Shown here: positions 5,255 to 45,171 of the stretch, one piece after another
Position numbering within the stretch: position 1 is the stretch's first letter
Layout: each line of letters starts with the position of its first letter
Assembly: GCF_011207455.1 (NCBI RefSeq)
Contig: NZ_CP048877.1
Span: 2,162,576 to 2,226,575 of the forward strand
Direction: 5' to 3'
DNA length: 64,000 nt
Origin: Thermosulfuriphilus ammonigenes
Lineage (GTDB): Bacteria > Desulfobacterota > Thermodesulfobacteria > Thermodesulfobacteriales > ST65
Translations under genes and position numbers: made by a program
The notes under the pieces: model-generated
Databases searched by the model: none
What the model was told of the DNA's origin: nothing
What the model saw: only the letters and a program-made list of their open reading frames with translations

Positions 5255-5351
5255 CTTTAAAACTATAGGTCCAAAACTTTGTCGAAGACAAGCAACTCTT
5301 TCCTCTAGACCTTGACATTAAAGAGCCCCCTAGTTTTTAATCAAAGAGAGA

Positions 5352-5540
5352 CTCCAGGTGCCCTTAAGGGGTTAAACGGGAAGTCCGGTGCAAGTCCGGC
5401 GCTGGCCCGCAACCGTGACCGGGGACGAACGCCGCTAGGCCCGGAGGGGCAAGCCTTCGGGTGACAGGCCACTGGGGCCGGGAGGCCCCGGGAAGGCGCG
5501 GCAAGTAGGTTGATCCGGAAGCCGGGAGACCGGCCTGGAG
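5352..5540 (+). promoter_or_regulatory. Cobalamin riboswitch 1 (upstream of the Ca-loop protein/exbBD/tonB operon)
   Basis: The cobalamin aptamer is recognisable from AAGTCCGGTGCAAGTCCGGC, GCCCGCAACCGTGA, the GGCCACTGG-type core, GGGAAGGCG and the B12 box GAAGCCGGGAGACCGGCC. The closing P1 helix is CTCCAGG (5352-5358) with CCTGGAG (5534-5540). A GC-rich hairpin (about 5548-5556 with 5570-5579) follows as a possible expression platform, but it has no U tract. Start codon control or Rho-linked control of the downstream operon is likely. The core is almost identical to the second copy at 9338-9527. Confidence 0.95.
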
Positions 5541-5685
5541 ACCTTCTGGGGCGGACTTCGGGGCTTCCTGTCCGCACCCTGGAAACCCTCCTTCTCTTTC
5601 AGGAAGGCCCCAGGCGAGCCCCAAAAGATTCTCTGGTGTAATTTTTATAAAATTCGTGTTATCAAAAGAGGCAAGGAGGGCAGGG

Positions 5686-9277: not shown

Positions 9278-9337
9278 AGATTCATTTTTCTTGCCTTTGG
9301 CGGTGTTTCATCGTATTTTCCCTGGGAAAAGACTTGG

Positions 9338-9527
9338 CCTTCAGGTGCCCCCTGGGGGAGAATCGGGAAGTCCGGTGCAAGTCCGGCGCTGGCCCGCAAC
9401 CGTGACCGGGGACGAACGCCGCTAGGCCTGGAGGGCAAGCCTCCGGGTGACAGGCCACTGGGGCCGGGAGGCCCCGGGAAGGCGCGGCAAGTAGGTTGAT
9501 CCGGAAGCCGGGAGACCGGCCTGAAGG
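9338..9527 (+). promoter_or_regulatory. Cobalamin riboswitch 2 (upstream of acsE-acsV)
   Basis: The same cobalamin aptamer as at 5352-5540, differing at only three positions over about 160 bases of core (one C/T, one single-base deletion, one T/C), all in one hairpin and all compatible with pairing. The closing P1 helix has a different sequence: CCTTCAGG (9338-9345) pairs with CCTGAAGG (9520-9527). It is followed by a strong hairpin (9539-9548 with 9564-9573) and a smaller one (9576-9581 with 9591-9596) before the acsE ribosome binding site. Confidence 0.95.
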
Positions 9528-9638
9528 TCTGTTTTAGAGGAAGCGGGGCTTCGAGGCTTCTGGCCTCGTTTCCGAGAAGGGTCTTTTATCCCCTTCCGGA
9601 AACCCCCCTTGATCCCAAAAAACCATAAGGAGGGAGTT

Positions 9639-38295: not shown

Positions 38296-38393
38296 GGAAG
38301 CGCCAGGGGCACTGGTGGCCCCCCCGGACTTCAAATCCGGTGTGCCGTCTGAGAAAGGCGGCAGGTGGGTTCGATTCCCATGCGCTTCCGCCA
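38296..38393 (+). tRNA. selC: tRNA-Sec (anticodon TCA)
   Basis: A 98-base tRNA with an 8-base-pair acceptor stem GGAAGCGC/GCGCTTCC, encoded CCA end (38391-38393), extended D stem GGGGC/GCCCC, anticodon stem CCGGA/TCCGG with loop CTTCAAA (anticodon TCA at 38331-38333, reads UGA), and a long variable arm (TGCCGTCT/AGGCGGCA). The long acceptor stem and variable arm identify selenocysteine tRNA. It shows the organism decodes UGA as Sec, which supports the three in-frame TGA genes at 43.5-45.2 kb. Confidence 0.98.
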
Positions 38394-43252: not shown

Positions 43253-43543
43253 ATGGATCAAGAAACCACGGCCCGCTTCTTTAAAGCCCTGGGAGACATT
43301 AATCGCTTACGAATTGTCTTTTTCCTCCTCCAGGGAGAGCGCTCTGTGGGACGATTAGTTGAAGAACTTGGCCTTTCTCAACCTCTGGTCTCCCACCATC
43401 TCAAGGAGCTCAAAATGGGAGGAGTAGTCAAAACCAGGCGAAAAGGCCCCTTTATTTATTACAGCCTCAAGGATCCCCGGCGAATGTTAGAGATTCTTGA
43501 ACAGGTCAAAAGGATTACCACCGGAGGGAACCATGGCTCTTAA
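43253..43543 (+). CDS. ArsR-family transcriptional regulator
   Basis: A 96-residue winged-helix repressor (FFKALGDINRLRIVFFLLQG, VGRLVEELGLSQPLVSHHLK, KTRRKGPFIYYSLKDP). It has no Cys pair of the ArsR/SmtB metal site, so it may sense something other than thiophilic metals. It overlaps the following Sec-containing gene by 11 bases and probably controls the selenoprotein group downstream. Confidence 0.92.
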   Translation: MDQETTARFFKALGDINRLRIVFFLLQGERSVGRLVEELGLSQPLVSHHLKELKMGGVVKTRRKGPFIYYSLKDPRRMLEILEQVKRITTGGNHGS

Positions 43544-43994
43544 GTACCAAGAATTAATTAAAGACCTAAGTCTAGAGGAAATCAAAGACCTCTTTTTGGC
43601 CCTGGCCTCACAGGTTTTTTCTCTTCTGGATGAGGAGTCTCAAAAGGAGATTGTCCTTCGGATGTTTGGCCATGAGGAGGGACAGATACCCTCGATGGTT
43701 TATTATTGACTGGCTAAGTGTCTTGACGCGGGAGTTGACCCGCGTTCCATGTGTCAGAGGCTGGTATCCACTGTAGATATAAGGAGAAAACTCTCCCAGG
43801 TGGCTCCAGAGGCCATAGTCAGCCTTTTTGAGGATTGGCTTGAAGAGCTAGAAGAGGCCATTTTAAACCATATTAAAGAGTATCCTACTATTTCTGATGA
43901 AGAGCTGGCTGAACAACTGAAGATCTCAAAGGAAGGGGTGACCTTTCTCCTTGACCGGATGGTCAAGGAAGGAAAGATTCGTTCTATTCCCTGA
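43533..43994 (+). CDS. Probable new selenoprotein with U-x3-C motif and winged-helix-like tail
   Basis: Read as Sec, the TGA at 43707-43709 joins two frames into one 153-residue protein: helical N-terminus, SMVYY-Sec59-LAKC63 (a U-x3-C redox-type motif), more helices (RKLSQVAPEAIVSLFEDWLE) and a C-terminal segment PTISDEELAEQLKISKEGVT that looks like a winged helix-turn-helix. Support: the same frame on both sides, no ribosome binding site before the internal ATG at 43749, a perfect SECIS-like hairpin 23 bases after TGA, and selC in the window. The ATG at 43533 follows GGAGGG and overlaps arsR by 11 bases. I do not recognise a family. Alternative: two small genes or a pseudogene. Confidence 0.75.
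43726..43745 (+). other. SECIS-like hairpin 1
   Basis: ACGCGGG (43726-43732) pairs perfectly with CCCGCGT (43739-43745) around the loop AGTTGA. The loop begins 23 bases after the in-frame TGA (43707-43709) and has G at its second position. Bacterial SelB-binding hairpins generally need a short upper stem about 16-37 bases past the UGA with a G in the first two loop positions. Confidence 0.72.
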
Positions 43995-44094: not shown

Positions 44095-44415
44095 ATGAGG
44101 TTTTTGATCCTTATTTCCTCGGATAATCCAGAGGTGGTCTGGAATGCCTTCCGAATCTCTAACCTCATTCTGGATCAGGGAGATCAGGCCTCGGTATTTT
44201 TAAATGGTCCTTCGGTGGCCTACCAAAAAATAGATTCTCAAAGGTTTCCTATCAGGAAATTGGCCAGGGATTTAGTCCTCAAAGGTGGTCATCTTTGGGC
44301 TTGAGGTAAGTCTATGGCCATCCACGGGGTGGGTGAGGACGACTGCTTACGGAAGGGGACTCAGAAACTTCTCTACGACCTCTCTAAAGAGGCCGAAAAA
44401 ATAATCTCTTATTAG
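44095..44415 (+). CDS. DsrE-like selenoprotein
   Basis: With TGA 44302-44304 read as Sec70, the frame gives a 106-residue DsrE/DsrF-like protein: MRFLILISSDNPEVVWNAFR, then LKGGHLWA-Sec-GKSMAIHGVG, ending LLYDLSKEAEKIISY before TAG. In this family the equivalent position is a functional Cys (typical A-C-G-x-C). The length and ending after the TGA fit the family, while stopping at the TGA (69 residues) would lose its last third. A DsrE-like selenoprotein family is known from Desulfobacterota symbionts. The ATG follows GGGAGG. Proposed role: sulfur or selenium transfer or redox relay. Confidence 0.85.
44319..44335 (+). other. SECIS-like hairpin 2
   Basis: CATCCAC (44319-44325) pairs with GTGGGTG (44329-44335), one G-T pair, with the loop GGG (or CGGGG if the closing pair opens). 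The loop starts 21 bases after the TGA at 44302-44304 and begins with G. Confidence 0.65.
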
Positions 44416-44424
44416 GAAGGAACA

Positions 44425-45171
44425 CTGGGTAAGCTCTGCTGAAAGTCCAAAGAAAACCTTCCCGGGGTCTTCGGGAAGAAAAGTAATTGTTTTATCTGTG
44501 GGAAGCCTCTGCTTTACCTCAATGAAGGCCGATGGCTTCACTGCACGCTCTGTAACCAGGCGGTATTAGCCCACATCTTTTGCCCGGAAGGCCACTTTGT
44601 CTGCGAAAGCTGCCATAGAGAGCTGGCCGTAAAGGTAGCCCTTAAAATAGCAAAGGCCAATACCAGGCCGGACCCTATAGCGGTTACCACGGAGGTTCTA
44701 AAACGGACCAGTATTCCCATGCTTGGTTGCCACCACGCTTTTATAGCAGCCTTTTCTCTTCTTTCAGCCCTTAAGGCAGCAGGCCTCCCGGTTCCCCATG
44801 ACGCTTTTGAGGAAGTTTCCCAGAGGACAGGGGCCCAAGCCATAAGCGGATACTGTGGTCTTACAGGGATTTGCGGCCTGATACCGTCCCTTGGAGCCTG
44901 CTTGTCCTTTCTCGTTGGGGCTCGTTGCGGGACGAAAAGAGAACAAAAGATGGTAATGGAATTTAATCTTCGCCTCCTTGAAAAGATATATCTCTTGCCT
45001 GCTCCAAGTTGCTGTAAGGCCTATATGTGGGCTGGTCTCGAGGAGGCAGTGTTTTTCTTCTCAAAAAGTTTTTCCCTTAAAGGACTCTTGTTTTCAAAAC
45101 CCCTTTGTGAATTTTACAAAGACCATCCTCACGGATGTCCGGGGAGAAATTGCCCTTATTTTCCGACCTAA
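44425..45171 (+). CDS. DUF5714-like probable selenoprotein, non-ATG start
   Basis: The frame is open from just after the DsrE-like stop codon to 45171 if TGA 44440-44442 is read as Sec. No ATG, GTG or TTG lies between the upstream TAG and the TGA; CTG at 44425 follows AGGAAGG and is the best start, giving GKLC-Sec-KSKEN at the N-terminus. The rest resembles DUF5714: Cys pairs (CFICGK, CTLCNQ, CESCH), LGCHHAFIAAF, GYCGLTGICGLIPS, PAPSCCKAYMWAGLEEAVFF. A SECIS-like hairpin with loop GGGTCTT follows 22 bases after TGA. Without Sec decoding the only start is ATG 44719, which drops the Cys-rich N-terminal domain. Function of the family is unknown. Confidence 0.72.
44458..44478 (+). other. SECIS-like hairpin 3
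   Basis: CTTCCCG (44458-44464) pairs perfectly with CGGGAAG (44472-44478) around the 7-base loop GGGTCTT. The loop starts 22 bases after the TGA at 44440. The loop contains GGTCT, the same loop string found in the E. coli fdhF SECIS that SelB recognises. Confidence 0.78.

Follow-up and report, generated by a model that had tools for sequence, protein, structure and literature searches.

A predicted divergent TsoA selenoprotein encoded beside a cysteine-free ArsR-type regulator in Thermosulfuriphilus ammonigenes

Redox roles are thought to be typical of most known selenoproteins, one family of which, TsoA, is credited to Haft & Tolstoy 2025 in a passage of a 2026 review (PMC13188914). TsoA corresponds to the NCBIfam model NF045695 ('LULAXC motif selenoprotein TsoA'), is preceded by the ArsR/SmtB-type regulator TsoR (NF045707) and belongs to the Tso operon ('three selenoprotein operon'), which is recognized by TsoB and TsoC; as far as the literature we found shows, the family is known from sequence only. 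We analyzed a window of 64,000 nucleotides (the whole stretch of DNA under study, contig NZ_CP048877.1, positions 2,162,576 to 2,226,575) from Thermosulfuriphilus ammonigenes, the genome of which is a single contig of 2.29 Mb. The window contains a gene interrupted by an in-frame TGA that a preliminary description had put forward as a candidate new selenoprotein family. This novelty could not be upheld, the family being already published: the gene product matches NF045695 (E=2.7e-36, 125 bits, under the curated cut-off of 170) over its full length, with residues 6–146 aligned to positions 2–143 of 144, and all 42 sequences of our alignment A1 match the same model. The window copy shares with the TsoA of this model the Sec-Leu-Ala-x-Cys motif and the upstream TsoR but carries Tyr before Sec (YULAKC, not LULAXC); U-L-A-x-C is retained, U59, A61 and C63 being invariant or nearly so. 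It also differs from the usual TsoA in its surroundings, since TsoB and TsoC were not found in the genome and predicted Sec-containing DsrE and DUF5714 genes stand in their place. By homology and context, the window protein is thus predicted to be a divergent TsoA of the same family, lying outside the NCBI equivalog cut-off, which misses this Thermodesulfobacteria copy.

The tsoA frame (M...YY-TGA-LAKCLDAGVDP...RSIP) extends over 153 codons to position 43991 and ends with a TGA stop (Table 1). As described previously, translation showed that the internal TGA divides it into 58 and 94 codons in the same frame, and the second half is devoid of a ribosome binding site: no Shine-Dalgarno sequence occurs in gacccgcgttcc, the stretch just before the first ATG past the TGA (43749). 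The overlap of 11 bases (43533–43543) with the ArsR gene was likewise found, and translation of the two genes is probably coupled.

Table 1. Features of the tsoR-tsoA locus and of short TsoA relatives (window coordinates unless a locus is named).
Feature	Coordinates	Strand	Basis
Selenocysteine tRNA gene	38296..38389	+	Rfam RF01852, 76.4 bits; ARAGORN anticodon tca
tsoR, cysteine-free winged-helix regulator of the ArsR type	43253..43543	+	NF045707, HTH_metalloreg, Pfam HTH_5
Shine-Dalgarno-like GGAGGG of tsoA	43524..43529	+	Inside tsoR, just 5' of ATG 43533; serves the first half only
tsoA, predicted 153-residue selenoprotein (Sec59, helical N-domain, C-terminal winged helix)	43533..43994	+	NF045695 match; alignment A1 of 42 homologues
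In-frame UGA, predicted Sec59	43707..43709	+	Every homologue examined has TGA at this codon
Candidate bacterial SECIS hairpin	43710..43757	+	MFE -20.4 kcal/mol
Cys63 codon of tsoA	43719-43721	+	Sequence
Apical stem of SECIS candidate, GACGCGGG/CCCGCGTT	43725-43732/43739-43746	+	Loop AGTTGA
C-terminal winged helix of TsoA, residues about 104-153	43842..43991	+	Pfam HTH_24, 34.7 bits, cut-off 21.9
DsrE-family gene, second predicted selenoprotein of the cassette	44095..44415	+	Pfam DsrE, 24.7 bits, cut-off 22.7
DUF5714/MbdU-like gene, probable third selenoprotein	44425..45171	+	DUF5714, 122.6 bits
TGA of short TsoA relatives	L075 3959 of reversed locus; L076 3832; L077 3999	L075 -	MVERUMQMC

Among 395 genomes from the phylum, 45 yielded a match, and TGA occupies the aligned codon in every full-length homologue taken from whole genomes (42/42). 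In a search of 84,980 species genomes, 80 loci from named genomes were recovered, among them 63 new proteins, and TGA again occupied the Sec codon at every locus (80/80). Two search patterns were used for these species genomes, one spanning the Sec site and one not, which left room for Cys forms to be recovered. Pooled, both searches comprise about 105 distinct proteins, all with TGA at the aligned codon and conserved flanks on either side, and none of these is a Cys homologue (C-x3-C) of TsoA proper. The C-x3-C forms that the preliminary description suggested looking for were not recovered within TsoA proper, Cys forms occurring only in a distant, shorter relative. One homologue lacks Cys63 (LAEF) and retains the TGA, which makes the Sec site the more conserved member of the Sec/Cys pair. 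We also examined whether homologues occur solely as two independent proteins; they do not.

The sequence following the UGA can be folded into a candidate SECIS hairpin, with z-scores of about -2.5 against dinucleotide shuffles and -3.2 against synonymous-codon shuffles, although in many single homologues the z-scores are weak (median -0.64). The stem GACGCGGG...CCCGCGTT is conserved in six Thermodesulfobacteria relatives. In 36 other TsoA sequences from Desulfobacterota, codons GAA, GGT and GTC at +7 to +9 are frozen and span the apical loop of a predicted hairpin GG(A/G)CGAAGGTGTCGA(T/C)CC. The frozen Gly codon is GGT in 35 of the 36, compared with 12% expected from the glycine usage of those genes (P about 8e-31, a value that is too small because kin sequences are counted as independent, the strongest signal being nonetheless local to the hairpin). 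The window hairpin and the codon freezing at the apical loop together point to a candidate SECIS element 3' of the UGA. The genome also encodes the Sec machinery: a selenocysteine tRNA gene is located inside the window 5 kb upstream of tsoA, and SelA (633 bits, cut-off 268) and SelB (393 bits, cut-off 242) are found elsewhere. With tRNA-Sec, SelA and SelB all encoded, a hairpin 3' of the UGA and TGA maintained in about 105 homologues, the prediction that UGA-59 is decoded as Sec appears secure on sequence evidence, and the joined protein, with Sec59 and Cys63, is indeed a predicted selenoprotein. Were the TGA instead a genuine stop, or the scar of a pseudogene, the halves would be separate or dead. 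The only point in favor of this is the division of the frame under the standard code; fixation of the TGA with both flanks conserved in the same homologues, the SECIS-like codon freezing and the Sec machinery make this highly improbable, and we reject it on grounds of conservation.

Within a 96-sequence TsoA alignment, V56, U59, G67, P70, F99 and W102 are invariant (U59 also in alignment A1) and A61, C63, V68, D69, M73, C74, L87 and L98 nearly so, C74 being a third conserved Cys beside the Sec-x3-Cys pair. AlphaFold predicts an all-helical N-domain in which Sec59 and Cys63 would share a helix, separated by one turn. This Sec-bearing domain is modeled less surely (pLDDT 61–75 around residues 41–80 of the full model); residues 1–110 modeled alone gave only helices and no strands, with a mean pLDDT of 81 and a pTM of 0.38, and a thioredoxin fold around Sec was not seen in that model. 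Foldseek, queried with the Sec-bearing domain alone, returned only FrmR (E about 7, Z 2.7), an uninformative match; given the low pTM of the query model (0.38), the domain may still adopt a known fold. A PDB sequence match to 7rdr ('circular tendon repeat protein', E=2e-7) was discarded as a helical-repeat artefact, no stretch passing alone. The winged-helix tail was borne out by an above-cut-off HTH_24 match, by mean pLDDT values above 90 for residues 101–150 and by structural matches to Lrp/AsnC-type and other winged-helix chains (Z up to 9.4 over 51–62 residues). TsoA is acidic (window copy net -11 in all; family N-part mean -10), and the net charge of its winged helix is near zero or negative (family mean about -0.6, window -4), opposite to the basic TsoR. 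The recognition helix bears a nearly invariant Phe, F138, at a usual DNA-contact position of MarR-type helices. These opposite charges and F138 favor contact with protein over contact with DNA, and direct DNA binding by TsoA is doubtful on this basis.

In all of the distinct loci that extend 450 bases or more upstream (97/97), TsoR lies directly 5' of TsoA. The median gap is 17 nt; the two genes overlap in the window and in the relatives nearest to it. The window TsoR resembles NF045707 over nearly the whole protein and in its position directly upstream of tsoA, but falls slightly under the cut-off (102 bits against 115); its score with HTH_metalloreg is 86.6 bits (cut-off 55). It contains zero Cys and thus no Cys-based ArsR metal site. 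Among 117 TsoR copies, 56 have no Cys and no Cys is conserved, so that TsoR lacks a metal or persulfide site built on Cys.

Downstream, the locus departs from the usual arrangement, its order being tsoR - tsoA - dsrE(Sec) - DUF5714(Sec). The DsrE-family gene has an in-frame TGA at 44302 (motif AUGKS), aligned with Sec in three relatives and with Cys in a fourth. The DUF5714 gene, open from 44416, has one at 44440 (LCUKS), its CU motif lying 8 codons past the preceding in-frame stop; with no ATG, GTG or TTG start 5' of the TGA, the start of the gene is uncertain, CTG 44425 behind AGGAAGG being the likeliest. Its CU motif, found as CU/UC in relatives at three loci, and a match to model positions 37–266 liken it to MbdU (NF045648, metal-binding double selenoprotein), but it is roughly half as long as the model, has a single Sec and scores 246 bits against a cut-off of 600. 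Profile searches of the T. ammonigenes genome gave no match to TsoC and weak partial matches only to TsoB, whereas both models do match in relatives. Judged by TsoB and TsoC, the locus falls short of the Tso operon; it has three TGA genes, two of which come from other families. In the 88 distinct loci that reach 2.5 kb or more beyond the gene, tsoA is followed by TsoB/TsoC only (53), by DsrE/DUF5714/TsoX only (21), by both (7) or by neither (7), TsoB being present in 51/88. The DsrE + DUF5714 form is common to Thermosulfurimonas and related Thermodesulfobacteria loci, four in number, and the window copy shows that a second, DsrE/DUF5714/TsoX-type form of the Tso operon exists. The downstream gene types point to thiol/sulfur transfer: rhodanese/DsbD for TsoB, glutaredoxin-like for TsoC, and DsrE. 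Elsewhere in the window, Rfam identified two cobalamin riboswitches (5339-5552 and 9326-9538).

The searches also recovered shorter TsoA relatives with a Met-rich N-terminus, an LFEEW motif and a winged helix. Three loci, L075, L076 and L077, which come from a single genus and two of its genomes, have an in-frame TGA within MVERUMQMC and a hairpin behind it; close by are a TsoR-like ArsR gene, a VTT-domain-like membrane protein and a Sec-containing ArsM-like methyltransferase. Relatives from three other genomes have Cys at the aligned site, and ArsR genes adjoin these too. TsoA is the sole NCBIfam selenoprotein model matched (56-64 bits), none of these models being specific to the MVERUMQMC proteins, and the motif does not appear in the selenoprotein table of the review (PMC13188914). 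The short relatives may represent an undescribed Sec/Cys sister family of TsoA. At two further loci, TsoA-like proteins keep the LFEEW and winged-helix parts without the Sec segment.

The explanation that we consider best, to which we give about an even chance, is that tsoA is a Tso-kind selenoprotein gene whose product would sense for TsoR, which in turn would control a redox cassette. Sec59 and Cys63 would either join in a reversible selenenylsulfide or capture a reactive species of sulfur, selenium or a metalloid; TsoA would hand its state to the thiol-poor TsoR in a contact between the two proteins, made by the acidic surface and winged helix of TsoA; and TsoR would then release a small redox cassette from repression, consisting of DsrE-Sec and DUF5714-Sec in the window and of TsoB/TsoC in most relatives. 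We infer a redox/chalcogen-sensing partner of TsoR, as opposed to a thioredoxin-type enzyme, because the pairing with TsoR is invariant, the downstream genes vary and TsoR is without conserved Cys. A sulfur/selenium or metalloid species is the likeliest signal, considering the rhodanese/DsbD, glutaredoxin-like and DsrE neighbors and the ArsM-like methyltransferase near a distant TsoA-like protein. Gene pairing alone is no proof of regulation, and TsoA could be an effector in the same operon.

Such an effector, an operon enzyme or chalcogen carrier serving for example in a persulfide/selenide relay with DsrE, DUF5714 or TsoB/TsoC, would use its winged helix for protein interaction only and leave TsoR to sense otherwise. 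The sulfurtransferase/thioredoxin-type neighbors agree with it, as do the charge of the winged helix and F138, which point to protein contact, and the redox functions presumed for most known selenoproteins (PMC13188914). TsoR, however, is constant before TsoA at every locus tested whereas no single effector is, and the Sec domain is modeled as all-helical with no thioredoxin fold, and we hold a carrier or enzyme to be a credible reading with roughly one chance in three. In a further reading, which follows the preliminary description, TsoA would bind DNA as a transcription factor switched by Sec and work beside TsoR. The HTH_24 match and Lrp/AsnC-like fold speak for this, but the acidity of the protein, a winged helix of about zero or negative charge and the near-invariant Phe in its recognition helix render it unlikely. 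As a hypothesis, a redox switch based on Sec and linked to DNA binding is nonetheless reasonable, and the invariant association with TsoR strengthens it.

We tentatively propose, with somewhat less than even confidence, that TsoR and TsoA constitute a two-protein sensor in which a Cys-free ArsR repressor borrows the Sec-x3-Cys switch of a separate winged-helix selenoprotein. If true, this would be a Sec-based gene-regulatory sensor controlling different selenoprotein cassettes by lineage, and the invariant TsoR pairing across changing cassettes makes Sec in gene regulation a testable claim. BigR/SqrR-type persulfide/redox regulators have in common with TsoR the ArsR fold and links to sulfur-transfer genes. 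These regulators sense through their own Cys residues; TsoR, in contrast, has no such Cys of its own, and the Sec/Cys pair sits instead in the neighboring protein, TsoA.
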